From positions 218,103 through 282,102 of the forward strand of contig WGMR01000007.1 of assembly GCA_016124955.1 (NCBI GenBank): a stretch of 64,000 bases of DNA, given 5' to 3'. Origin of the DNA: Alphaproteobacteria bacterium (GTDB lineage: Bacteria > Pseudomonadota > Alphaproteobacteria > UBA9219 > RFNS01). The notes below the pieces were generated by a model. The model searched no databases, had not been told where the DNA came from, and was given only the letters and a program-made list of their open reading frames with translations. Below are positions 31,864-55,348 of the stretch, piece by piece (the stretch's first letter is position 1; every line of letters starts with the position of its first letter). Made by a program: the position numbers and the translations under genes.

Positions 31864-33258
31864 ATGCTGAGAATTCCCAGACGCCGCGCCGGACAAAAGG
31901 GTTTCACGCTGGTCGAACTTGCCATCGTCGTCGCCATCGCGGGCTTGTTGTTCGCGGGGCTGTGGCGGTTGATGTCATCGGGCACGCAACAGCTCGCGGA
32001 ACAGGCGGCGGCCGACCAGATGCAGAAACTGGCCAATGCGGTGAAGGGTTATCTTTCTTCCTCGAACGGGCAGCAATGGCTCGCGACCGCAAGCTGGCAA
32101 AATAACCTTGCCACCGGCACTTTCAATCTTCCGCTTCCCGCCGCCGGCGCGCCCGCAGGCAGCACCAACTGTAAAACCACCGCGCCGATGAGCACGGCTT
32201 CGGCCCCCTCGGCCTCCTCGCTGTGGCGCGATTTCTGTGATTATTTGCCCTCCGGCTTTTCCGCAGCCAGCATCAACCCTTATGGACAGGCCTATGAAAT
32301 CAAGGTGCGGCGCGTTTCCGGCACGCTCGGTTCGGCGCCGACCGCCTATGAATTCATGATCCTCACCAACGATGCGGGCGGTACCAACGTTATTCCCGAT
32401 ACGCAGGGCGGCCGTATCGCCGCGCTTATGGGCGGCGATGGCGGGTTCGTTTATACCAATAACAATGTCTGCGGTTCGCCGCCGGTACAATGGGCCTGCG
32501 GTGCGTTCGGCGGCTTTGCCATCAACATCAATAGCTATAGTTCGGCGTCAAGCTTCACGGCTTCCTCAAGCGGCGGGCGCATCGCTTCGCGCACTTTCGT
32601 AAGTGCGGACAGCAGCACATCTTCGCCCTGGCTGGCGCGTTCTCTGTTGCCGGGCGACAATGCCACGACGCCCGTCTTTAACACCATGAGCACCAGTCTC
32701 GTGCTCGGCGGCCAGCAGGTTTACATGGGCGCGAACACCACGGCGACAACCGGCGGCGGCAACTTCAACGTCGCAGGCGGCGATATCACGGGGCAGGGGC
32801 GTATCGTGCTTGGCGCGACCGCGGGCAAGACCGGCGTTGCGAACTTCAACAATACCGGCGGTACGGGCGCTGCGGTTGTGATTACCGGCACGGGTTCGGG
32901 CGACGCCGCGACGGTAAACAGCGGCGATCTTACGGTCTCGGCCGCCGTCAACGCCAATGCGTTCGTCTATACCTCGGATCGCAACCTGAAGCACGATATC
33001 GTACGGCTCGATGGCACGCTGGACAAGTTGCTGCAGATCGAAGGCGTGAGCTTCCGCTGGAACAGCGACGACAGCGAAAGCATGGGCCTGATCGCGCAGG
33101 ATGTTGAGAAGGTTTATCCCGAGCTGGTCGTGATCAAGGCTGATGGCACCAAGGGGGTGGATTACGGCAAGCTTGTTGGGCCGATTATCGAATCGATCCG
33201 TGCGCTGCACGAAGAAAACGCGGCGCTGCGCCACGAGATCGAAAGGCTGAAACGCTAG
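31864..33258 (+). CDS. pilV: PilV-like tip adhesin with C-terminal peptidase S74 chaperone domain
   Basis: A 464-aa minor prepilin. Leader MLRIPRRRAGQKG precedes FTLVELAIVVAIAGL (Gly -1, Glu +5). Residues about 40-280 resemble the constant region of shufflon PilV proteins, including DYLPSGFSAASINPYGQAYE and GRIAALMGGDGG. Then a Gly/Thr/Asn-rich repetitive stretch (about 285-365) looks like a trimeric phage tail-fibre stalk. The last ~95 residues are a peptidase S74 (endosialidase intramolecular chaperone) domain: SDRNLKHDI with Ser371 and Lys376 in the Ser-x4-Lys spacing of the self-cleaving dyad, then MGLIAQDVEKVYPELV and a closing coiled coil EENAALRHEIERL. Ribosome site AAGGA. No recombinase or inverted segments follow. 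Confidence 0.88.
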   Translation: MLRIPRRRAGQKGFTLVELAIVVAIAGLLFAGLWRLMSSGTQQLAEQAAADQMQKLANAVKGYLSSSNGQQWLATASWQNNLATGTFNLPLPAAGAPAGSTNCKTTAPMSTASAPSASSLWRDFCDYLPSGFSAASINPYGQAYEIKVRRVSGTLGSAPTAYEFMILTNDAGGTNVIPDTQGGRIAALMGGDGGFVYTNNNVCGSPPVQWACGAFGGFAININSYSSASSFTASSSGGRIASRTFVSADSSTSSPWLARSLLPGDNATTPVFNTMSTSLVLGGQQVYMGANTTATTGGGNFNVAGGDITGQGRIVLGATAGKTGVANFNNTGGTGAAVVITGTGSGDAATVNSGDLTVSAAVNANAFVYTSDRNLKHDIVRLDGTLDKLLQIEGVSFRWNSDDSESMGLIAQDVEKVYPELVVIKADGTKGVDYGKLVGPIIESIRALHEENAALRHEIERLKR

Positions 33259-33262
33259 GGAA

Positions 33263-33279
33263 GGGCGGCAACGCCGCCC
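33263..33279. terminator. Hairpin between convergent pilV and a secreted-protein gene
   Basis: GGGCGGC-AAC-GCCGCCC, a perfect 7-bp GC stem in the 27-bp gap between two convergent genes. There is no T run on either strand, so any termination would be weak. Confidence 0.4.
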
Positions 33280-33285
33280 CCGGTA

Positions 33286-33684
33286 TCAGCGCGATACGAA
33301 CAGGAAGCAGGTCAGGCCGCAGCTTTTGTTTGCCTGTTCGCTATAGCAGCAAACCGGCCAGCGGTAGTTGCCGACACTTTCAACCTTCGATGCCTTGTTG
33401 GGAATGACGCACTTTTCGTGCGGCCCTGCGCGCTTGAAATCGCTCATGGAACCGGAAATATTGTAATTCCACTGCACGCATTCATTTGCTTCGGTGACCG
33501 CCATCGTGCTGCTGAGGCCGAGGCAGCCGGTGCTTGCCTTGGTGGCGCAGCTAACCTTGCCGAGCAGGGCGGATGAGCCGTTAAAAGGCGCGGCATCGCG
33601 AACGTTTGCGGACGGGACAGTGTCTTCAGCCATGGAAGGGGCGGCTAGGCACAGGGCCAGAAGCAGGGCAGCTAGAAAACGCAT
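33286..33684 (-). CDS. Small secreted cysteine-rich protein, unknown
   Basis: 132 aa from the ATG at 33684, preceded by the strong ribosome site GGGAGGT. A clear signal peptide (MRFLAALLLALCLAAPSMA) is followed by a mature protein with eight cysteines, several toward the C-terminus (PVCCYS, KSCGLTC). No known family is recognised; the even cysteine count suggests a compact disulfide-bonded fold. It is convergent with pilV and divergent from the rluD-like gene, with its own AT-rich promoter region at 33685-33780. A periplasmic or surface accessory is possible. Confidence 0.72.
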   Translation of the reverse strand: MRFLAALLLALCLAAPSMAEDTVPSANVRDAAPFNGSSALLGKVSCATKASTGCLGLSSTMAVTEANECVQWNYNISGSMSDFKRAGPHEKCVIPNKASKVESVGNYRWPVCCYSEQANKSCGLTCFLFVSR

Positions 33685-33834
33685 GGAACCTCCCAATAGC
33701 TTAAATAGACACGATACAGCAGGAACGTGCCAAAATTTTGACTTTTATACCAGCGAATACAATTAGTTTGTTCCGTTATGCTAAATAAACCCTTAAAACA
33801 GGCCTTAACCCTTGTTTTCCGGATGCCTGCCGCC

Positions 33835-34845
33835 ATGGCCAAAACCCATAGAATCATGATTACGGCCGCGCAAGCGGGCGCGCGGCTGGACCGCGCGCTG
33901 CCTGCCTTGATGACCGAGGCGGGGGCCGATATATCGCGCGCGCGGCTCCAGTCGCTTTTGCGCCAGGGTTTGGTGCGCGGGCCTGACGCGAAAGCGGGGG
34001 GCGATGCGCGGGTGAAAGAGGGCGACAGGTATGAAATAACCGTGCCAGCCGCCACCGCCGCCACACCGCGCGCACAAAAAATTGCGCTTTCGATCGTGCA
34101 TGAAGACAGGGACCTGATCGTGATCAACAAACCGGCGGGCATGGTCGTGCACCCGGCCGCGGGCAACCATGAAGGGACGCTCGTCAATGCGCTGCTCGCG
34201 CATTGCGGCGCGAGCCTGAGCGGCATCGGCGGCGTGGCGCGTCCGGGGATTGTACACCGGCTCGATAAGGATACCAGCGGGCTGATGGTCGTGGCCAAGA
34301 ACGATGCCGCGCATCGCGCGCTTTCGGCGCAGTTCGCGGACCGCACACTAAGTCGCACATACAGCGCGCTTGTATGGGGCGTGCCTGCGCCTGCGAAGGG
34401 CGATATCGATGCGCCTGTCGGGCGGCACCGCATCAACCGCAAGAAAATGGCTGTTGTGCGCGGCGCGGGCAGCCGCGCGGCACTAACGCATTATAAGGTG
34501 CTTGAAAGGTTCGCGGATACGGGAGCGCTGGTGGAATGCAGGCTGGCGACCGGACGCACGCATCAAATCCGCGTGCACATGGCGCATATCGGCCACCCGG
34601 TGGCGGGCGATCAGCTTTACGGGCGCAGCCGCCGTGGCAAGGCCGGGGCGGACGCTGCCAGGGCGGCATTGGCGGCGTTCCCGCGCCAGGCTTTGCATGC
34701 CGCTATGCTGCGATTCGTTCATCCGCGCAGCGGCCGGGTGCGGGAATATGCGGCCCCGCTGCCGCCGGATTTTGCCAAGCTTTTGCGGGATTTACGCAAA
34801 GCCGCGCCGCCTGCCGGGGGCCGAAAAAAAGCAGGCAAGAAATAA
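33835..34845 (+). CDS. rluD: RluD-family 23S rRNA pseudouridine synthase
   Basis: RluA/RluD-type pseudouridine synthase that isomerises uridines in 23S rRNA. An N-terminal S4-like domain (RLDRALPALM...LLRQGLVRG) is followed by the catalytic domain with the motif HRLDKDTSGLMVVAK, containing the catalytic Asp, and the later LATGRTHQIRVH. Length about 336 aa fits the family. Start is uncertain: the ATG at 33835 gives MAKTHRIMI and fits other family members; ATGs at 33778 and 33823 are in frame. The exact uridine target (RluD versus RluC/RluA-like) is not certain. It sits upstream of rpoH, as in many alphaproteobacteria. Confidence 0.87.
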   Translation: MAKTHRIMITAAQAGARLDRALPALMTEAGADISRARLQSLLRQGLVRGPDAKAGGDARVKEGDRYEITVPAATAATPRAQKIALSIVHEDRDLIVINKPAGMVVHPAAGNHEGTLVNALLAHCGASLSGIGGVARPGIVHRLDKDTSGLMVVAKNDAAHRALSAQFADRTLSRTYSALVWGVPAPAKGDIDAPVGRHRINRKKMAVVRGAGSRAALTHYKVLERFADTGALVECRLATGRTHQIRVHMAHIGHPVAGDQLYGRSRRGKAGADAARAALAAFPRQALHAAMLRFVHPRSGRVREYAAPLPPDFAKLLRDLRKAAPPAGGRKKAGKK

Positions 34846-34856
34846 GGCCATATTTT

Positions 34857-34920
34857 TGCCGCATCGCCCGGGTTTTTTGGGGCGTGGTTTCCTGCTATCA
34901 CTGGGATAGCAAACGCGGCA
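34857..34920 (+). promoter_or_regulatory. Structured rpoH leader (nested hairpins)
   Basis: TGCTATC (34893-34899) pairs perfectly with GATAGCA (34905-34911) around a 5-base loop, and an outer TGCCGC/GCGGCA pair (34857-34862 with 34915-34920) can enclose it. It lies between rluD and the rpoH ribosome site, which it does not cover. It may be a weak rluD terminator or an rpoH mRNA structure. Confidence 0.35.
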
Positions 34921-34942
34921 TATATTTGCCGGGAACGGAATA

Positions 34943-35893
34943 ATGAACACGCTGGTCGCCCAAACGCCCGCCCCCCGCATGCCGGCCATTTCGCCGGACG
35001 GCAACCTTGCGCGCTATCTGCAGGAAATCCGCAAATTTCCCATTCTGGAAAAACAGGAAGAATACACGCTCGCAAAATCATGGCGCGACAAGGCGGATAC
35101 GCAGGCGGCGCACAAACTCGTTACGTCGCATCTTCGTCTTGTGGCAAAAATCGCCATGGGGTACCGCGGCTACGGGCTGCCGCTGGCGGAGCTGATCGCC
35201 GAAGGCAATCTGGGCATGATGCAGGCGGTCAAGCGCTTCGACCCCGAGCGCGGCTTCCGGCTTTCCACCTACGCGATGTGGTGGATCAGGGCCGCGATCC
35301 AGGAATATATTTTGCATTCCTGGTCGCTCGTGAAAATCGGCACCACCGCGGCGCAGAAGAAGCTGTTTTTCAACCTGCGCCGTTTGAAAAATGAAATGCG
35401 CGCGATCGATGGCGGGGATCTGACTCCGGATCAGGTTGAGAAGATATCGAAAGACCTTGCGGTTTCGGAAACCGAGGTTGTGAATATGAACCGCCGGCTT
35501 GCGGGCGGCGGCGACCGTTCGCTGAACGCGCCCTTGCGCGAAGACGGCGAGGGCGGAGAATGGCAGGATTGGCTGGCGGACGACAGCGCCGATCAGGAAA
35601 CCGTGCTTTCCCAGCGGCAGGAGCTGACGCAGCGCCAGAAGCTGCTCGGCAACGCCATGCAAGCGCTCAATGCCCGCGAACGCGCGATTATCGAAGCGCG
35701 GCGACTGAGCGAGAGCCCCGCCACGCTCGAAGACCTTTCGCAGAAATTCGGCGTCAGCCGCGAACGGGTACGGCAGATCGAGGGACGCGCGTACGAAAAG
35801 CTTGAAAAGAGCATCAAAATGGAAGCCCGCAGGCAGGGCATGATCGACGGAAGCGAAGGCATCGTGATCGAAGGCAGCGCGCGCCGCGAATAG
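34943..35893 (+). CDS. rpoH: RNA polymerase heat-shock sigma factor RpoH (sigma-32)
   Basis: A 316-aa sigma-70-family factor of the heat-shock group. Region 2 contains ELIAEGNLGMMQAVKRFDPERGFRLSTYAMWWIRAAIQEYIL; the RpoH box QKKLFFNLRRLK is at residues 138-149, which identifies it as RpoH. Region 4 ends with VSRERVRQIEGRAYEKLEKSI. It directs transcription of chaperone and protease genes; ftsH in this window is a typical target in other bacteria. Alphaproteobacteria often have more than one RpoH; I cannot tell which paralogue this is. Confidence 0.95.
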   Translation: MNTLVAQTPAPRMPAISPDGNLARYLQEIRKFPILEKQEEYTLAKSWRDKADTQAAHKLVTSHLRLVAKIAMGYRGYGLPLAELIAEGNLGMMQAVKRFDPERGFRLSTYAMWWIRAAIQEYILHSWSLVKIGTTAAQKKLFFNLRRLKNEMRAIDGGDLTPDQVEKISKDLAVSETEVVNMNRRLAGGGDRSLNAPLREDGEGGEWQDWLADDSADQETVLSQRQELTQRQKLLGNAMQALNARERAIIEARRLSESPATLEDLSQKFGVSRERVRQIEGRAYEKLEKSIKMEARRQGMIDGSEGIVIEGSARRE

Positions 35894-35907
35894 CAGTCAG
35901 TAACGAT

Positions 35908-36405
35908 TTATCCGTTATTCTGTTCGCCGCCCACATCGGCGCCCCAAATTTTCTTTACCGTTTCCTGATTGGCCTTCAGGATCTTGATGCGGCTTTCGGC
36001 ATGCACCGACATAAGGCTCGCGATCATCGCGGGTACGGTCGCATAGATCGCCCAGCCCACGCCCGCCGCGCCATACATGATCAGCCAGTTAAGCGGCTGC
36101 CCCAGAATGGTGAAGGCGCTGTCGAAGCTGTGGCCCATTTTCCACAATTCGATCACCAGCGGCGCGACCCCGGCCGCGTTCATGGCGCTGACGGTGATGC
36201 CGGCGGCCTTTTCCTTATCGCGGTCGCTGATCAGGCATACGAGCGCCGGCAGCATGCCGGGTATGATGATGCATGCCGATGGCGCGAGGATTGCGAGCAT
36301 CACGCACACCAGCATGATCAGCCCGACCGGGCCGCTGCCTTTTTTCTTGGTCCCTGTGGCGCCCGCCGCCGCGGCCGCTGGTGCCTTGCCCTTAGCTTTT
36401 GCCAT
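35908..36405 (-). CDS. Unknown multi-span membrane protein
   Basis: A 165-aa protein with a basic, Ala-rich cytoplasmic N-terminus and hydrophobic segments at about residues 28-62 (probably two spans) and 100-128. A charged C-terminal helix follows (HAESRIKILKANQETVKKIWG). It lies 24 bp downstream of the pseudokinase gene on the same strand, so the pair is probably one operon. It is convergent with rpoH. No family recognised. Confidence 0.7.
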   Translation of the reverse strand: MAKAKGKAPAAAAAGATGTKKKGSGPVGLIMLVCVMLAILAPSACIIIPGMLPALVCLISDRDKEKAAGITVSAMNAAGVAPLVIELWKMGHSFDSAFTILGQPLNWLIMYGAAGVGWAIYATVPAMIASLMSVHAESRIKILKANQETVKKIWGADVGGEQNNG

Positions 36406-36429
36406 TTCGTTCCCCCTTCATGCGCACGC

Positions 36430-38466
36430 CTAGCTATTGAAGGCGCGAAAAATATTGATGATCAGCATGCCCACCGCAATCAGGCAGGCAACATAGGTTG
36501 CGGCAGGCCGGCCATATTTGTCGGCCGTTTCCTTGTGATTTTTAATCTGGCGCTCAAGGGTGCGAATTTCGCGCGCCGCGGCGGCATGCAGCAAAGACGC
36601 GGCTTCAAATTCCTGTTCGTCCTTCTGCACCATGCGCGGATCATCGACCAGTTTGGCGAGCATCGCGAAGCTTCCGCGCTCGGCCGCAAGCTTTAGCTGC
36701 TCGCGCAGGGTTTCCTGCAGCTGGCGGTTATGGAAGCGGTGCACAACCGGTTCGGCCAGCGGGTAGATCCATTGGCTCAGGCCCGGCAGCCGTTCGGGGC
36801 CGTAGCGGCTTTGCATGTCGGCGAACAGATTGATCAGGGCCAGCCCGCGCTGCTGCGGATTATCCGACATACCGAGCGGGGCGAAGGTGCGATCGGTTTT
36901 ACGCGCACGCACGATGCACCATGCGGCGATGTGCCTGTCCATCGGTTCGCGCGGCCGCGCGGAGCTGCGGGATATGCTTTCGAGAGCGGGCAGAAGCTCC
37001 TTCGGCGCCAGCACATATTGCGAAAGAATCATGGGGCTGAGGCAGGGCAAGGCGGGGTTCAATTCATAGGCGGCACGCTCGACCCCGCTGCCGTATGAAT
37101 TTTTCTCGATATGCGGTTTTACCTTTTCGATCGATTGCGAAAGCGGCACCAGTTCGGTCTTCGCTTCTTTCTGCAAATTGACCCAGAAGGTCGCGAGCTG
37201 ATTGCCGATAATTTCCCCAAGCACCTGTACGTTGCCGTTCGTGCGCACGGCGTCGGCGAGCGCCGAGGCGATGCCGCCCGGCATGACATTGACGCCCCGG
37301 TACATGATGGGCGCAATCGGATCAAGCGCCATGGACACGTGTGTGACCAAAAGATCTTCGTAGCGCGGGGTCTTGCCCTTGGCCTTGACGGTTTCGAGCG
37401 CGAAAGCGAGATCGTCCGCGCGCGCTTCGTCGCCCAGGCTGCGGCGCAGCCAGCTATCGAGCGCATCGGTTTCCAGCACCTTGACGGCGGCGGCGATATT
37501 CTGGGTCATGGCGCGGGCGATGGTCTTGGCTTGCGAATATTCCTTGTCGGCGAAGGTGAAGCTGCGCGTGGATTTGCGGCCAAACTCGGCCGGCTTGGGG
37601 GTCAGCCGCCGCCCATTGACCCATTGTTCAAGGTCTTCGATATCCCAGCGTGCGCGCGGGTCGTCGGCCAGCAGACCGCGCAAAAGTTCGGTCAGCGAAC
37701 TGGTCAGGCGGACATTGCCCATGAAGCTGTTGAACGAACCGCGCTCCAGCTTCATCCTCAGCATGGTCTGGTCATCGAGCTGGCGCATCGGATTTTGCCC
37801 CAGCGTCATCAACGCCGCGCATACGCCAAGCCCGTACATGTCGTCACAGGTCTGGGCCGGGCCGCGGTTGGGGGGCGGGCACACCGCCCGTTCGGGCGAT
37901 TCAAACAGCAGCGGCTGCCCGATGCCGCTGGGCACCGAAAGACATTCGCCCAGTTGCGGCGGTGTGCTGCCGCCTTCCTGCCAATAAATGTTGGTCAGCC
38001 GCACCGCGCCGTGGGCCGTGCCTGCCGCTTCGATATCGCTCAGCGCGCTTGTCAGCGGCGCGACGAACTGGCGGCCGACTATATCTTCGTGCAAAGGCTG
38101 GCGCACGCTTTGCAGATCTGTGTAATAGCGCGGCGCAGCCGGGCGTTCGGTCACGAAAGCGTAATAGCGCTTGCCGTCGGGCCACTGCACGACCTGCCCG
38201 TCAATGTTCTTGATGAAGGAGCGGTTGTCGATGGCGCGCAGCATTTGCGCGATATCGCTGCGGGCGGGATAACCGCTGTTGCAGATGTAGCCCAAAAGAT
38301 CAGCCCGGCTTGACCCTTTGAGCCGGGCGGCGAAAGCCGGGCCGCCCGTGCTATCGTGCAGCGGCTGGGGGTAGGAGGGCAATATTTCGCATTTAACGCC
38401 GAGAGCGACCTTGTCGCTGGCGTCTGTAATGGTTGGTACGTCGTCAATAGCGTCGCTAGGCGCCAT
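36430..38466 (-). CDS. Tail-anchored pseudokinase-like protein
   Basis: A 678-aa protein. Residues about 90-290 carry the skeleton of a Ser/Thr protein-kinase C-lobe: AHGAVRLTNIYW (151-162) in place of HRDLKPxNIL, with Ala154 where the catalytic Asp should be; LGE (172-174) in place of DFG; SPER (190-193) like APE; CDDMYGLGVCAALMTLGQNP like the D-x-Y/W-S-L-G helix; and DDPRARWDIEDLEQW like subdomain XI. The catalytic and metal-binding Asp residues are therefore missing. A long helical region follows, then a single C-terminal membrane segment (about 655-675). It is probably a cytoplasmic scaffold or sensor fixed to the inner membrane; its partner may be the 165-aa membrane protein encoded next. 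Confidence 0.72.
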   Translation of the reverse strand: MAPSDAIDDVPTITDASDKVALGVKCEILPSYPQPLHDSTGGPAFAARLKGSSRADLLGYICNSGYPARSDIAQMLRAIDNRSFIKNIDGQVVQWPDGKRYYAFVTERPAAPRYYTDLQSVRQPLHEDIVGRQFVAPLTSALSDIEAAGTAHGAVRLTNIYWQEGGSTPPQLGECLSVPSGIGQPLLFESPERAVCPPPNRGPAQTCDDMYGLGVCAALMTLGQNPMRQLDDQTMLRMKLERGSFNSFMGNVRLTSSLTELLRGLLADDPRARWDIEDLEQWVNGRRLTPKPAEFGRKSTRSFTFADKEYSQAKTIARAMTQNIAAAVKVLETDALDSWLRRSLGDEARADDLAFALETVKAKGKTPRYEDLLVTHVSMALDPIAPIMYRGVNVMPGGIASALADAVRTNGNVQVLGEIIGNQLATFWVNLQKEAKTELVPLSQSIEKVKPHIEKNSYGSGVERAAYELNPALPCLSPMILSQYVLAPKELLPALESISRSSARPREPMDRHIAAWCIVRARKTDRTFAPLGMSDNPQQRGLALINLFADMQSRYGPERLPGLSQWIYPLAEPVVHRFHNRQLQETLREQLKLAAERGSFAMLAKLVDDPRMVQKDEQEFEAASLLHAAAAREIRTLERQIKNHKETADKYGRPAATYVACLIAVGMLIINIFRAFNS

Positions 38467-38557
38467 AGCCGTTATCCTGCGCTATAGGCCACCGGGAATG
38501 GTGATTCGCTAAAAGTTACGTGATTTCCGGGCCTTGGGCTAGGGCCGAAGGGCCACA

Positions 38558-39850
38558 TCAATCCGCAAAAGGGTCCTGCATAAGGATCGTGTCGTCACGC
38601 TCGGGGCTGGTGGAAAGCAGCGTAACCGGGGCTTCGATCAGTTCTTCGATACGGCGGACGTATTTAACCGCGCTTGCGGGCAAATCGGCCCATGAACGGG
38701 CGCCGCGGGTGGTTTCCCGCCATCCGGCATGGGTTTCATAGACCGGCTCGACCTCTTCCTGCGCATGGGCGGCGGCGGGCAGGTAATCGATCTGCTGGCC
38801 GCGCCAGCGGTAGCCGGTACAGATTTTCAGCTCGGGCATTTCATCGAGCACGTCAAGCTTGGTCAGGGCGATGCCGTCGATCCCGCCCAGCTTTACCGCC
38901 TGGCGCACCAACACGGCATCGAACCAGCCGCAGCGGCGCTTGCGGCCCGTGACCACGCCGAATTCCTTGCCGACGCGGCCCAGATGCTCGCCCACCTCAC
39001 CCATATCCTCGGTCGGGAAGGGGCCGGTGCCCACCCGCGTCGTATAGGCCTTGCAGATGCCCAGAATACGGCCCAGACCGCGCAGCGCCATGCCCGACCC
39101 GCTGGCAGCCGCAGCCGCCACGGTGTTGCTGGAGGTTACGTAGGGGTACGTGCCGTGGTCGATATCGAGCATGGCGCCCTGCGCGCCTTCGAACAGAATG
39201 CGTTTGCCTTGTTTGCGGGCATCATCGAGCAACCGCCAGACCGGGGCGGCGTAGGGCACGATCTTGGGCGTGATTTCGGCCAGTTCGGATTCCAGTGTTG
39301 CGACATCGAACAGTTCGGCCCCGAAATGAGCCAGGGCGATGTTGTGGTGTTCGACCAGTTCGCGCAGCTTGCGGCGGACGGTTTCCGGGTCAGCCAGGTC
39401 GCAAAGGCGCAGCGCCCGGCGCGCCACCTTGTCTTCATAGGCGGGGCCGATGCCGCGGCCGGTGGTGCCGATCTTGCGGTCGCCCTTCGCGTTTTCGCGC
39501 GCCTTATCAACCGCGGCATGCAGCGGCAAAATCAGCGGCGCATTTTCCGCGACGCGCAACGTTTCGGGCGTGATACGCACGCCTTTGGCGGCGATCTTGG
39601 AAATTTCTTCAAGCAGTGCCCACGGGTTCACGACCACGCCATTGCCGATCAGCGAAAGCTTGCCTCCCCGCACCACGCCCGAAGGCAGCAGGCTGAGCTT
39701 GTATTCGGTGCCGTCGATGACCAGCGTGTGGCCGGCATTGTGGCCGCCCTGAAAACGCACGACGACATCGGCGCGGCTCGAAAGCCAATCGACGATCTTG
39801 CCCTTGCCCTCGTCGCCCCATTGGGCGCCAACCACCACGACATTGCTCAT
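38558..39850 (-). CDS. purA: Adenylosuccinate synthetase
   Basis: Converts IMP and aspartate to adenylosuccinate with GTP, the first committed step of AMP synthesis. The ATG at 39850 begins [18 protein letters not shown], the hallmark GTP-binding loop (GDEGKGK); an upstream in-frame ATG adds 11 residues not found in the family. Other motifs: [46 protein letters not shown] and [11 protein letters not shown]. 430 aa, the normal length. Confidence 0.97.
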
Positions 39851-40037
39851 GAAACTTTTTCCTTTCCGGCACGGCCCGAACAAGGCGCGGCTGAACGCCG
39901 CGCTTGCATGGCCGCAAGCGGGTCAAACCCGGTTCAATTGGACGCTATGCGATGGAAAGCTATCAGAAAAAAACCGCGGGGGGGAGGGGGAAAAACGCTG
40001 CCCTTGGTAAAAAATATCAACAATAACAATATCTTGA

Positions 40038-40634
40038 TTATTGGCCTGACTCTGGCTTTTCCGTGCCCTTTTCCTCGCCCGGCAGGCTTTCCGAAAGCCA
40101 GTCCCGCCAGGCCTCAAGATGCTGGCGCGCAAGCGGCCGCCGCGATGTGAAACTTGTGGCCTGCGCGCCCGCTTCTTTTTCGGTCTGGCGCACGAGCACG
40201 CCCTGCAGCGGCCCGACGCGCTTGCCCAGATCCCACAGCCTGTCGCTGGTGTCCTGCGCGACGCCGCGCCAGTAAAGGATCTGGTCGCGGCTTTTGCTTA
40301 CGGTGTCCTTCAGGCGGCGAACCTGTTCCTGCCACTGGCGGATTTCATCTTCCTGTTGCACGGAAATATCCTGCAACGCTTCGAACTGGTGCTGCAGCGC
40401 GTTCAGGCGCTGTTCGAGCTGCGCTTGCGTAAGGCCGAGCGCGCGCAAATGTTGCGGGTTTGCTGCGCCCGCGCCCGCGCTGTTGGCGGCTTTATGGGTG
40501 AGATCGGAGAAATTGAGGCCTTCGCGGGCGAGGATTTTCTTGGCGAGGCGCAGGGCGGTGCCCGCTTCCCCCTCTTGCGAGGAATCGATCAAGGCCAGAA
40601 CCTTGGCCAGCCGCTCGGCGTTGCGCGCATCCAT
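40038..40634 (-). CDS. DUF2786-like coiled-coil protein
   Basis: 198 aa. The first 40 residues (ERLAKVLALIDSSQEGEAGTA...) match the pattern of the DUF2786 N-terminal helical module found in many bacterial and phage proteins. Residues 65-125 form a Gln/Glu-rich coiled coil with LEQRLNALQHQFEALQ. No membrane segment or catalytic motif. It stands alone between purA and serA, on their strand. Function unknown. Confidence 0.7.
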   Translation of the reverse strand: MDARNAERLAKVLALIDSSQEGEAGTALRLAKKILAREGLNFSDLTHKAANSAGAGAANPQHLRALGLTQAQLEQRLNALQHQFEALQDISVQQEDEIRQWQEQVRRLKDTVSKSRDQILYWRGVAQDTSDRLWDLGKRVGPLQGVLVRQTEKEAGAQATSFTSRRPLARQHLEAWRDWLSESLPGEEKGTEKPESGQ

Positions 40635-40769
40635 AGATTCGGCGTATCACGGAAGAATCTGATTTGCCTAGGGTTGTCACGCGCAACGCGCGAAAAAACC
40701 GCGATCCGCGCCGCGACTGTGGCGCAAAAGACTCAATGGCTGTTGCGGCCGGGACTCAGGCCGGTGCGA

Positions 40770-42350
40770 TCAGGCGAAGTTCAATACCTTGGCCTTGACG
40801 ACGCCGGGAAGAGCGGAAATCTCCTTCAGCAGCGTATCATCGATCGCGCTATCGATCGCGATGAGCGACATCGCCTGCCCGGCCTTCTGGTTGCGACCAA
40901 GATTGAAGTTGGCGATGTTGATATTGGCCTTGCCGAGCGCGGTGCCAAGCCTGCCGATAAAACCGGGCTTGTCCTCGTTATTGATGAACAGCATGCGCGG
41001 CGTCAATTCGGCTTCGATCACGATTTTATCGACCCGGCAGATGCGCGGCTTGGCGCCCGCCAGCAGCGTGCCGACCACGCGATGCTCGCCCTTGTCGGTT
41101 TCGATGACGACGCGGATCAGTGTCTGGTAGCCTTCCGAAATCTCGCGCTTGGTTTCCGAAACCGTGATGTTGCGTTCGCGCGCGATCACGGGGGCGTTGA
41201 TCATGTTGACGCTTTCCAGAAGCGGCTTGAGCAGGCCCATCAGTACGATGCCGGTCAGCGGCTTGGTGTTCAGCTCCGCCACCTGGCCTTCATATTCGAC
41301 GGTGGCCGATTTGATGCCGTCCGCCACCGTTTGCCCGGCGAAGCTGCCGAGCTGTTCGGCCAGCTTCATGTAGGGCTGGAGCTTCGGCGCATCTTCGGCC
41401 GAAACCGAAGGCATGTTAAGCGCGTTGGTCACTGCGCCGGTGAGCAGGAAATCGGCCATTTGCTCGGCCACCTGCAACGCAACGTTTTCCTGTGCTTCGT
41501 TGGTGGCAGCGCCAAGATGCGGCGTGCAGACCACGTTTTCCATGCCAAAGAGAACATTGTTTTTGGCCGGTTCTTCCGCGAACACATCGAACGCCGCACC
41601 GCCCACCTGACCGCTTTCGAGCGCGGCCTTAAGATCAGCTTCGATAACCAGCCCGCCGCGCGCGCAATTGATGATACGAACGCCCTTCTTGCAATTTGCG
41701 AGCGCCTTGGCATCGAGGATGCCGCGTGTCTTGTCGGTCAACGGCGTATGCAGCGTGATGAAGTCGCTGCGCGCAAGCAGCGCATCAAGCTCGACCTTCT
41801 CGACCCCGATCTGCTTGGCGCGGTCGGCCGACAGGAACGGATCGAACGCGATCACCTTCATTTTGAGCCCGAGCGCGCGGTCGGCGACGATGGCGCCGAT
41901 ATTGCCGCAGCCGATCACGCCCAGCACCTTGCCCGAAAGCTCGACGCCCATAAAACGCTTCTTTTCCCATTTGCCGGCCTGGGTCGAAATGTCGGCGGCG
42001 GGAATCTGGCGGGCGAGCGCGAACATCATGGCGATCGCATGCTCCGCCGTGGTGATGGAATTGCCGAACGGCGTATTCATGACGCAAACGCCACGCGCGG
42101 TGGCGGCGGGGACATCGACGTTATCAACCCCGATACCGGCGCGGCCAACAACCTTGAGCCGCGGCGCGGCCGCCAGCAATTCCTTCGTGACCTTGGTGCT
42201 CGAGCGAATGGCGAGGCCGTCATAATCGGCGATGATCTTGATCAGCTCGTCGGCCTTGATGCCTTCGCGTTCATCGACCTCGACTCCGCGTTCCTTGAAG
42301 ATTTTTACGGCGGCGGGTGAAAGGGCGTCGGGGATAAGGACTTTGGGCAT
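40770..42350 (-). CDS. serA: D-3-phosphoglycerate dehydrogenase
   Basis: First enzyme of serine synthesis, oxidising 3-phosphoglycerate with NAD. The ATG at 42350 gives MPKVLIPDALS and 526 aa, the long form with an extra domain before a C-terminal ACT domain. The NAD-binding Rossmann motif is VLGVIGCGNIGAIVADRA; the catalytic Arg is in INCARGGLV and the His in CTPHLGAATNEA. The ACT domain at about 455-526 (MLFINNEDKPGFIGRLG) is the usual site for serine feedback. serC lies 56 bp upstream on the same strand, so the two form a serine operon. Confidence 0.97.
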   Translation of the reverse strand: MPKVLIPDALSPAAVKIFKERGVEVDEREGIKADELIKIIADYDGLAIRSSTKVTKELLAAAPRLKVVGRAGIGVDNVDVPAATARGVCVMNTPFGNSITTAEHAIAMMFALARQIPAADISTQAGKWEKKRFMGVELSGKVLGVIGCGNIGAIVADRALGLKMKVIAFDPFLSADRAKQIGVEKVELDALLARSDFITLHTPLTDKTRGILDAKALANCKKGVRIINCARGGLVIEADLKAALESGQVGGAAFDVFAEEPAKNNVLFGMENVVCTPHLGAATNEAQENVALQVAEQMADFLLTGAVTNALNMPSVSAEDAPKLQPYMKLAEQLGSFAGQTVADGIKSATVEYEGQVAELNTKPLTGIVLMGLLKPLLESVNMINAPVIARERNITVSETKREISEGYQTLIRVVIETDKGEHRVVGTLLAGAKPRICRVDKIVIEAELTPRMLFINNEDKPGFIGRLGTALGKANINIANFNLGRNQKAGQAMSLIAIDSAIDDTLLKEISALPGVVKAKVLNFA

Positions 42351-42406
42351 GGTCTGTTCTTTCAAAAAAGAGGGATGATGGAAAAGAGGCGCGAACGGCG
42401 CGGGTT

Positions 42407-43612
42407 TCAGGCCGCGGCCTTCAACGTCGCCAGCGTTTGGGCATAGGCCCAACCGATCCAGGGCAGCAGCGCCGCCACATCATCGGGATCGACCGTGCCG
42501 CCGCACCAAAGACGCAGCCCCGGCGGCGCGTCGCGATGGCCGTTGATATCGTGGGCCACGCCTTCCTTATCGAGCAACGCGCCGAGCTTTTTCACGAAAT
42601 CCCACTGCGCTTCGACCGGCTGGCCGGTGATGGCGGGGTCCGCGAATTTGAGCGTGACCGAGGTTGTCGAACGCGCGCGCGGATCGCCGCACATATATTC
42701 GATCCATGGCGTGGCCGCGACCCAGGCCTCGATCGCCTTGCAGCTGGCGGCCGTGCGCTTCATCAGCGCGGGGCGGCCGCCGATGCCGTGGGCCCATTTC
42801 AACGCGTCGATCACATCCTCGATGCACAGCATCGAGATCGTGTTGATGGTTTCGCCCTTGAAGATACCCAGATTGACCTTGCCGTCCTTGGTCATGCGGA
42901 ACAGCTTGGGCAATGGCCATGCGGGCTTGTAGCTTTCAAGCCGTTCGACCGCGCGCGGCGAAAGGATAAGGATGCCGTGCGCGGCTTCGCCGCCCAGCAC
43001 CTTTTGCCACGAATAGGTGACGACATCGAGCTTGGACCAATCCATATCCATCGCCAGAACGGCGGAGGTGGCATCGCAGATCGTCAGGCCCTTGCGATCA
43101 GCCGGGATCCATTCGGCATCCGGCACGCAAACGCCGGCCGTGGTGCCGTTCCATGTGAACACCACGTCATGGTCGCAATCGACCTTCGCAAGATCGGGCA
43201 GCGTGCCATGTTCGGTCTTGAAGGTGCGGACGTTTTCAAGTTTGAGCTGCTTGGTGATATCGGTCAGCCATGTGGCGCCGAAAACATCCCACGCCAGCAC
43301 ATCGACCGGACGCGGGCCCAGCATCGACCACAGCGCCATTTCCACGGCGCCGGTGTTGGAAGCGGGCACAATGCCGATCAGGTAATCATCGGGCAGTCCG
43401 AGCAGCTTGCGCGAAAGGTCAATCGCCTCGGCGATGCGTTCCTTGCACGGCTTGGCGCGGTGCGAACGGCCGAGCAGCGCGCCTTTCAGCGCATCGATGG
43501 TCCAGCCGGGCCGCTTGGCGGCGGGGCCGGATGAAAAGCAGGGATTTTTGGGGCGAAGGGTGGGTTTCGCAGTGTTTGAAGGCGTCTGCGCCGCCTGTTG
43601 CTGTAAAGGCAT
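42407..43612 (-). CDS. serC: Phosphoserine aminotransferase
   Basis: PLP-dependent enzyme converting 3-phosphohydroxypyruvate to phosphoserine with glutamate, the step after SerA. 401 aa from the ATG at 43612 ([11 protein letters not shown]); earlier in-frame starts extend into non-conserved sequence. Motifs: [21 protein letters not shown] near the start, the substrate loop [18 protein letters not shown], and the PLP lysine in [15 protein letters not shown]. It belongs to the form common in alphaproteobacteria, longer than E. coli SerC (about 362 aa). Confidence 0.95.
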
Positions 43613-51956: not shown

Positions 51957-53894
<1,938 letters not shown>

Positions 53895-54052: not shown

Positions 54053-55348
54053 TCAGCGGACAAAGGAGGCCGAAACGGAAATATTTTTTGCTTCCTTTCC
54101 CGGCAGAGGAACCGCCCATAAATCGCCGTCGCGCCACAGCGCGGGCAGCGCCGCGCGCGCCTTGCCGCGTGCAACGGCCTTGCGCAAACCGGGCGCGATT
54201 TCATCAAGCTGTGCATGCGGCTGCGTGCCGAGCGGCCCGACGATAAGCCCTTCGGGCGCTTCGCTGTCATGCAGCGTCACGGTAAAGCGGCCATCCCATA
54301 CGATGGTTTCGCCGCCGCTGATGCCCTGCCTGTCGTTGATCGCGGCGGGTTCGCGCAAAATCGTCAGCATGCCGTTGCATGCGTGCAGTTCGCAGCCATG
54401 CAGCGTGCGCGCCGCTTCGTCTTCGGCAAGCAGCCCGCGCCAAGCCGCCAGCAACGGTTCGTGCTTGGGGCCATACCCGTCCTTGCCCGCAACAAGCTGC
54501 AGCATGGCAGACAGCGCCCGAAGCTGGATTTCAAGCGGTGCCGTGCGCATCGCGGCGATATCGAGCGTGGCGCAACCTGCGGCATCGACCGCAGCGCAGC
54601 GCGCAAGCAATTCCTGCGTGTAATGGGAAAGCGCATCGCTCGCGCTTGCGGCGCGTGCGGCAAGGCCGCGCAGCCTGTCTATATCCAGCCCTTCGGCGGC
54701 CAGTGCCTGCATCGCGCCGCGCAGCCGTCCGCGCGCGAAACGCCCGCTGTTGTTGCCGGGGTCGGTCACATAGTCCTGCCCATGGGCTTCGCAAGTCGCG
54801 ATCAGCCGTTCTTTCGGCACATCGAGCAAGGGGCGCAGAAGATTGATGCCGCCAAGCTTCGTTGCCGCGCGCATGCCAGCAAGCCCGTCGATGCCCGTGC
54901 CCTTTGCAAGGCGCATCAGAAGCGTTTCGGCCTGATCGCCCGCATGGTGCGCGAGCAGAAGGTCGGTAATGCCATGACGGTGGCAGGCTTCGAGCAGCAG
55001 GCGGTAGCGCGCCACGCGCGCGTTTTCCTGTATCGCGCGCGTCACGCCGCCATGTTCCCAGACAAGGATTTCATTTTCCACCCCGGCCGCGCCAAGCCAT
55101 GCGCCGACGCGCGCCGCTTCCCCGGCGCTTTCGGGGCGCAGACGATGATCGACAATAAGCGCGGTCACGCGCCTGCCGTAGGCCCGTGCCCAATCGCGTA
55201 GCAGCAGCGCAAGCGCCATGCTGTCCGGCCCACCGGAAACCGCGACAGCGATGCGCTTGCCGGGTTGTACGGGCAGCATAAGCGCGAGTTCGGCCGCATC
55301 GAGCGGCCGGGCGGTTCGGGGGGCTTCCTGTTTAAGCGTTTTGAACAT
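54053..55348 (-). CDS. tilS: tRNA(Ile)-lysidine synthase
   Basis: Modifies C34 of tRNA-Ile(CAU) to lysidine, changing its codon and amino-acid specificity. 431 aa with the ATP-pyrophosphatase P-loop SGGPDS at residues 38-43, the HHAGDQAETLLMRL motif and GIDGLAGM downstream, followed by a C-terminal domain. It sits between cpoB and ftsH, the conserved alphaproteobacterial order, although an extra membrane-protein gene separates it from cpoB here. Confidence 0.95.
   Translation of the reverse strand: MFKTLKQEAPRTARPLDAAELALMLPVQPGKRIAVAVSGGPDSMALALLLRDWARAYGRRVTALIVDHRLRPESAGEAARVGAWLGAAGVENEILVWEHGGVTRAIQENARVARYRLLLEACHRHGITDLLLAHHAGDQAETLLMRLAKGTGIDGLAGMRAATKLGGINLLRPLLDVPKERLIATCEAHGQDYVTDPGNNSGRFARGRLRGAMQALAAEGLDIDRLRGLAARAASASDALSHYTQELLARCAAVDAAGCATLDIAAMRTAPLEIQLRALSAMLQLVAGKDGYGPKHEPLLAAWRGLLAEDEAARTLHGCELHACNGMLTILREPAAINDRQGISGGETIVWDGRFTVTLHDSEAPEGLIVGPLGTQPHAQLDEIAPGLRKAVARGKARAALPALWRDGDLWAVPLPGKEAKNISVSASFVR

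Follow-up and report, generated by a model that had tools for sequence, protein, structure and literature searches.

A tail-anchored pseudokinase and its co-retained membrane partner, a candidate non-catalytic adaptor pair in alphaproteobacteria

The window (the whole stretch of alphaproteobacterial DNA analysed here, 64,000 nucleotides in length) encodes a pseudokinase, hereafter PK, in which a kinase fold is present and the catalytic residues are missing, together with a small membrane protein, its partner. Genomes almost always have both genes or neither, and the proteins probably act as a non-catalytic, membrane-held adaptor complex, for which the membrane protease FtsH is the leading candidate machine. 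Pseudokinases are an already known kind of protein and the PK-partner pair is old and widely shared in alphaproteobacteria; PK has been recorded as an ordinary kinase, yet it is without what a normal kinase needs.

A kinase fold lacking its catalytic residues

Table 1. Coordinates of PK, its partner and the neighbouring genes within the window.
Feature	Position	Strand	Basis or remark
PK (pseudokinase gene), 678 aa	36430..38466	-	ORF, family profile, structure model
PK kinase-like domain, residues 16–286	37609..38421	-	VIA-align
PK catalytic-loop remnant H152-G-A-V-R-L-T-N159	37990..38013	-	Ala154 replaces the HRD Asp and Arg156 the Lys; Asn159 retained
PK L172-G-E-C175	37942..37953	-	Glu174 at DFG Asp position, Cys175 at Phe
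PK C-terminal helical domain, residues 290–645	36532..37599	-	structure model
PK C-terminal transmembrane anchor, residues 652–670 of 678	36457..36513	-	hydrophobicity
Partner gene, 165 aa, with roughly three membrane spans	35908..36405	-	ORF, family hydrophobicity
purA	38558..39847	-	upstream of PK; NCBIfam NF002223, 648.9 bits
rpoH (sigma-32)	34943..35893	+	convergent with the pair; TIGR02392, 364.3 bits
ftsH	51957..53894	-	13.5 kb upstream of PK; TIGR01241, 888.5 bits
tilS-like gene	54053..55348	-	upstream of ftsH; PF01171, name tilS is our reading

Both open reading frames of the pair had been called correctly in an earlier, sequence-only reading of this DNA (Table 1). Searched as a single sequence, PK matched the Pfam kinase model PF00069 with an E-value of 0.0055 (16.6 bits, below the 31.7-bit cut-off). 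A profile built from 51 PK family members reached kinases in the PDB at E 1.2e-12 over positions 62–300, and the kinase homology of PK thus exceeds chance. The structure model of PK (mean pLDDT 92.4, pTM 0.85) gave 1837 Foldseek matches at E ≤ 0.001, the best 50 of which were all kinases or kinase complexes. Superposition by VIA-align yielded a Z of 23.4 with WNK3 (5o21_B; 256 aligned residues, rmsd 2.9) and of 23.1 with PknA (4x3f_B; 262 aligned residues, rmsd 3.6). The aligned range, about residues 16–286 in most comparisons, includes the N-lobe as well as the C-lobe. Hence the kinase C-lobe outline noticed in the earlier reading is real but is not the whole of the fold, and the structure prediction proposed there as a check returned a kinase (pLDDT 92.4, Z 23) rather than an unrelated fold. 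PK shares this region with WNK3 and with mycobacterial PknA and PknB (Z 21–23), from which it differs in the absence of the catalytic lysine and aspartate and in the possession of a C-terminal helical domain and a tail anchor.

The state of the active site was scored across 81 aligned PK family members, namely the window and 80 further loci, one per genome, which were picked by us from the hit lists and are not a random sample. None of the 81 has a lysine at columns 59–62, where the β3 lysine is expected; this range was scored because the register is less sure here, the alignment placing the lysine of an active relative (L258, see below) on 59 and motif reading placing it on 61. Position 154, which corresponds to the HRD aspartate and is alanine in the window as the sequence-only reading had stated, is very mixed (A40 S12 G11 N6 C3 R3 E2 Q1 D1 K1 M1). 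At position 156, arginine is found in 71 of the 81 members and lysine in none. Asn159 is kept in 79 and His152 in 78, and Arg69 is invariant in 51 aligned sequences. The structural residues D209 (81/81) and R273 (80/81) are retained, whereas the glutamate of the APE motif, at position 197 in our register, is present in only 4/81, and the Gly-rich loop looks degenerate in our reading of the alignments. Since the catalytic residues are missing across the 81 members, the degeneracy is family-wide and not confined to the PK of the window, from which an absence of phosphotransfer is predicted.

The residues at 172–174 are indeed LGE, as had been noted earlier, but reading them as the counterpart of DFG was a register slip: two alignments with L258, which carries HRDIKPGNLFF and VIADFG, both set Glu174 on the DFG aspartate. 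The acidic residue is therefore kept (E53 D25 Q2 P1, i.e. acidic in 78 of 81), and it is the phenylalanine and glycine that are lost (Phe at 175 in 1/81, Gly at 176 in 0/81). A displaced catalytic aspartate, which the earlier reading had considered as a way for activity to be restored, was not encountered; the sole aspartate at the HRD position among the 81 belongs to L078 (G337; HGDIRPTN), which is likewise without a lysine at 59–62. L106 and L109 have a glutamate at this position. Separately, one PK match (G387:C83:20765-22672) contains five stop codons (three TGA, one TAG and one TAA), which raises a question of decay, assembly or genetic code.

Residues 290–645, modelled alone, gave a confident structure (pLDDT 92.0) composed of helices and two small hairpins. 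Foldseek returned no PDB or viral structure match for this region at E ≤ 0.001, and the best VIA-align Z was only 4.6, so that no solved relative was found, which does not in itself prove a new fold. An internal repeat, considered because the model contains two hairpin-plus-helix units, was unsupported (hhalign E 0.019, probability 2.4). The C-terminal membrane anchor described in the earlier reading holds across the family: a hydrophobic span lies within the last 45 residues in 77 of 80 members (L093, at a contig end, being left out of the count), with 0 to 15 residues beyond it, and three members fall below the tail threshold of 1.6 (1.38–1.60). A further hydrophobic window occurs in 18 family members; the PK of the window has a single span. 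PK is accordingly predicted to be a tail-anchored protein with one C-terminal span and a short tail.

The best PK match outside the class of the window, among 396 genomes of the phylum, is partial (E 3.4e-27) and falls in L258, a 907-residue kinase from another class (genome G435; 3991-6711 of L258). The alignment spans the kinase domain and runs into the post-kinase region, and by our reading hydrophobic stretches lie near the L258 C-terminus. In contrast to PK, L258 has intact HRDIKPGN and ADFG motifs and matches PF00069 with 124.7 bits, and as judged from these sequences it offers a possible picture of the PK ancestor. Two proteins combining kinase, helicase and restriction-endonuclease domains (L259 and L260, matching the PDC-S37, Hhe and MkoA models) resemble PK over the kinase C-lobe and the first part of the post-kinase region; however, they are 2116 and 2380 residues long with helicase-type AAA and endonuclease domains, whereas PK has none and is encoded at a conserved core locus. 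A further bacterial membrane pseudokinase is the mycobacterial MviN, which differs from PK in being fused to a flippase-like protein and in working with an active kinase and FhaA.

Distribution of PK and co-retention of its partner

PK was found in 56 of 96 relatives and in 131 of 387 genomes of the class, about a third (127 of the 378 clean genomes). Among the 396 phylum genomes, matches at E < 1e-60 were restricted to the window's class (20 genomes by our count). Among the matches listed, PK apparently also occurs in two MAGs (L202 and L205) whose labels place them in other classes. The named carriers among the best 80 of 436 relatives include Azospirillum, Skermanella, Niveispirillum, Nitrospirillum, Magnetospirillum and a Micavibrio MAG. 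In two Azospirillum records, PK is annotated as ‘serine/threonine protein kinase’ and the gene after it as ‘hypothetical protein’. Model libraries gave weak kinase-type matches for PK (NCBIfam LanL, with 28.2 bits where the cut-off is 650, and MAD6; PADLOC MkoA and mad6) together with two Pfam models at chance level. No description of the PK or partner family, or of a role for the pair, was found among the titles and abstract openings listed by searches of the open-access literature.

The partner gene follows PK on the same strand after 24 bases. Three hydrophobic spans were counted in 42 of 73 partner sequences and two in 22 of them, and residues P53, N76, G79, G117, P125, W154 and G155 are invariant in 58 sequences. 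Thirteen of the 70 named partner sequences were left out of A4; L187 and L195 (partial), with 11 further named loci that are mostly near-duplicates, were left out of A3. The partner matched no family in Pfam, NCBIfam or PADLOC.

The pairing of PK with a small membrane protein, proposed previously for this one locus, is borne out widely. Examination of the neighbours in relatives, likewise suggested then, placed the partner directly downstream of PK in 73 of 81 loci, the window included (one of the eight misses is a contig end). The named loci, which share genomes with this first set, show the same arrangement in 70 of 80 cases. Furthermore, the presence of the two genes agrees in 383 of 387 class genomes, 130 having both and 253 neither, although co-occurrence was counted without phylogenetic correction and the 130 therefore represent far fewer independent events. 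The single genome with PK only (G390) has a weak match, as do the three with the partner only (E 1.4e-5 to 7.8e-4). Likewise, 55 of the 96 relatives have both genes; one has PK only, in a genome that is 69% complete, and four have the partner only, two of these being weak matches and two lying in genomes that are 75% and 84% complete.

Co-retention persists where the genes have come apart. In ten genomes of genus g8, PK and the partner are found on separate contigs, yet neither has been lost, and the same holds for G301 and G063. Moreover, PK and the partner have been copied jointly in G275, G341, G158 and G329. PK copies outnumber partner copies in some genomes, e.g. G160, G242, G311, G374 and G126, in a count for which at most nine partner candidates were scored per genome. 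The mirror-tree correlation between PK and the partner was 0.50, with a partial correlation of 0.44 given purA (n=28); in a smaller set (n=16) the partial value of 0.45 was not clearly above linked controls (0.43 for PK and rluD). Co-retention, co-duplication and gene order together suggest that PK and the partner form a two-part membrane complex.

G046 and G171 each contain three extra partner copies without PK (L217–L219 and L221–L223). No neighbour is common to the three loci and none of the copies is beside ftsH; the copy in L217 lies beside a long gene that we read as sensor-kinase-like and another that we read as response-regulator-like.

The chromosomal setting and ftsH

On the minus strand of the window the order is tilS-like gene, ftsH, an exchanger gene, a couple of membrane-protein genes, glmM, a gene for a solute-binding protein, serC, serA, a 198-aa gene, purA, PK and the partner, after which rpoH and rluD come next on the opposite strand (the names tilS, serA, serC, glmM and rluD are our reading of the sequences). 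Of the 81 loci, the window included, 50 have purA upstream of PK in the same orientation, 47 of them within 3 kb, and 38 have a convergent rpoH; because the loci differ in length, a neighbour that is missing may reflect a contig end or distance. The purA-PK-partner arrangement convergent with rpoH is old. The 198-aa gene (40038-40634) has weak coiled-coil matches only; it recurs beside purA in several relatives and beside the partner in genus g8. In a single case, G014, the partner is followed by clpS. No RNA family was found at the gathering threshold within 33000-43000.

A different arrangement is seen in genus g8, where the partner lies directly behind ftsH in nine of ten genomes, at a distance of 5–12 bases in eight and 199 in one; three of these ftsH genes, when tested, scored 872–879 bits with TIGR01241. 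In the tenth genome, G007, the partner is not beside ftsH. PK in this genus is directly behind tilS in all eight loci examined. Across the whole taxonomic order, 30 ftsH loci divide into 15 with tilS before ftsH, nine with the partner behind ftsH and six with neither within the flank. The combination of tilS-PK and ftsH-partner in genus g8, as against tilS-ftsH and PK-partner elsewhere, implies that PK and ftsH swapped places (the loci concerned are L231–L239, L062, L065–L067, L070 and L073).

The tight ftsH-partner pair in nine species is the best hint to function, and the ftsH link provides a first testable idea on the role of the pair. It suggests, tentatively and with a greater chance of being wrong than right, that PK and the partner could be an accessory of FtsH, acting as a membrane-bound client adaptor that would feed or shield FtsH substrates, perhaps RpoH, the heat-shock sigma factor encoded beside the pair. 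HflK/HflC and YccA are membrane proteins that act on FtsH; the partner is likewise a membrane protein and is directly behind ftsH in one genus, but it matched no family and its link to FtsH is one of gene order. Moreover, ftsH, glmM, purA, PK and the partner are clustered together both in the window and at five other loci (L103, L105, L109, L112 and L119), so that duplication or loss inside a shared cluster could have set ftsH beside the partner without any functional meaning. The FtsH reading is slightly weakened by G007 and by G301, where PK and the partner are apart and the partner is again not beside ftsH.

Proposed role and alternatives

In the mechanism that we favour, the dead Hanks-type kinase domain and the helical domain of PK would be held at the inner membrane by the C-terminal anchor, and PK would join the partner, with its about three spans, in a two-part complex working without catalysis. 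The kinase fold and helical domain would probably lie on the cytoplasmic side, where they would bind either a client or a further machine, FtsH being the leading candidate for the latter, while the partner may hold or gate client binding at the membrane. A non-catalytic binding complex is the simplest reading because the catalytic residues are gone and because in 44 of the 56 relatives with PK, the genome of the window among them, nothing else scores above the PF00069 cut-off. The remaining 12 have one, in a tally that was made by hand and covers PF00069 matches only. PK is thus kept where Hanks-kinase signalling is unseen, a clean case of a kinase fold retained for another use. Of the earlier suggestion of a signalling scaffold or activity sensor, the non-catalytic part stands; the sensing or relaying of Hanks-kinase activity does not fit these 44 carriers.

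The same counts bear on the idea that PK allosterically activates or inhibits a working Hanks-type kinase. Allosteric control of kinases is a common pseudokinase role, and the 12 relatives with a second PF00069 match would accommodate it; with no such match in the other 44, however, and none at E ≤ 1e-5 in the genome of the window itself, this is highly improbable, and a function as helper of a Hanks kinase was rejected. A better, though still small, chance attaches to PK being a non-canonical enzyme on the kinase fold, as SelO and SidJ are, which would bind a nucleotide or metal through Asn159 and Glu/Asp174, have other residues stand in for the missing lysine and aspartate, and transfer AMP or another group. 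With Asn159 and an acidic residue at 174 retained, PK could still bind a metal or nucleotide and so have some activity, and the conservation of His152, Arg156 and Arg69 is in keeping with it. Against this, the β3 lysine and HRD aspartate are gone, the glutamate at 197 is rare, the Gly-rich loop looks degenerate and position 154 varies in a manner unlike a catalytic site. The decay of the nucleotide-binding residues also weighs on a role as purine-nucleotide sensor tied to purA, to which the frequent position of purA just upstream would otherwise point; moreover, many pair-bearing loci showed no purA in the vicinity of PK (e.g. L057, L063, L064, L078 and L079) and core-gene neighbours can be neutral, which leaves this reading improbable. 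A defence function was rejected, as PADLOC gave partial kinase matches only (MkoA over PK residues 93–347, E 1.8e-9) and the pair occupies a conserved core locus; Mokosh-type defence kinases have helicase/nuclease domains joined to the kinase, and Pfam found no such domains in PK at E ≤ 10.

There is, finally, the secretion locus beside which the sequence-only reading had placed the pair. The cluster, which ends at 33258, encodes DotM, a coupling ATPase, a T4SS_TraI family protein, T2SSE-type ATPases, TcpQ, a secretin, PilO and an S74 protein, and PK could in principle be part of this Dot/Icm-type secretion and thin-pilus locus. The adjacency holds in the window, where rluD and rpoH separate the pair from the cluster, but a functional tie does not follow from it. 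When 17 secretion/pilus proteins of the window were searched by tblastn against 160 loci, matches were confined to L063/L147 and L073/L149 (two genomes), with DotB/PilQ-like ATPase or S74 genes near PK in L073 and L063; in L056 (11328-13847, G032) a gene of the DotA/TraY family extends over the partner gene's end. Secretion genes are thus near PK in three of the 80 further loci, each from the taxonomic order to which the window belongs, and were not found, with the window proteins as the only tblastn queries, in the other 77, while the pair is spread over the whole class, usually with purA or rpoH close by. The secretion and pilus genes next to the pair consequently look incidental; a tie as a general feature was rejected and membership of PK in the secretion locus is given very little credence. 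The region itself (2000-33258) joins a Dot/Icm-like secretion cluster to a thin-pilus-like cluster, and its last pilin-like protein (31864-33258) combines a pilin-type N-terminus with an S74 endosialidase-chaperone domain at its end.
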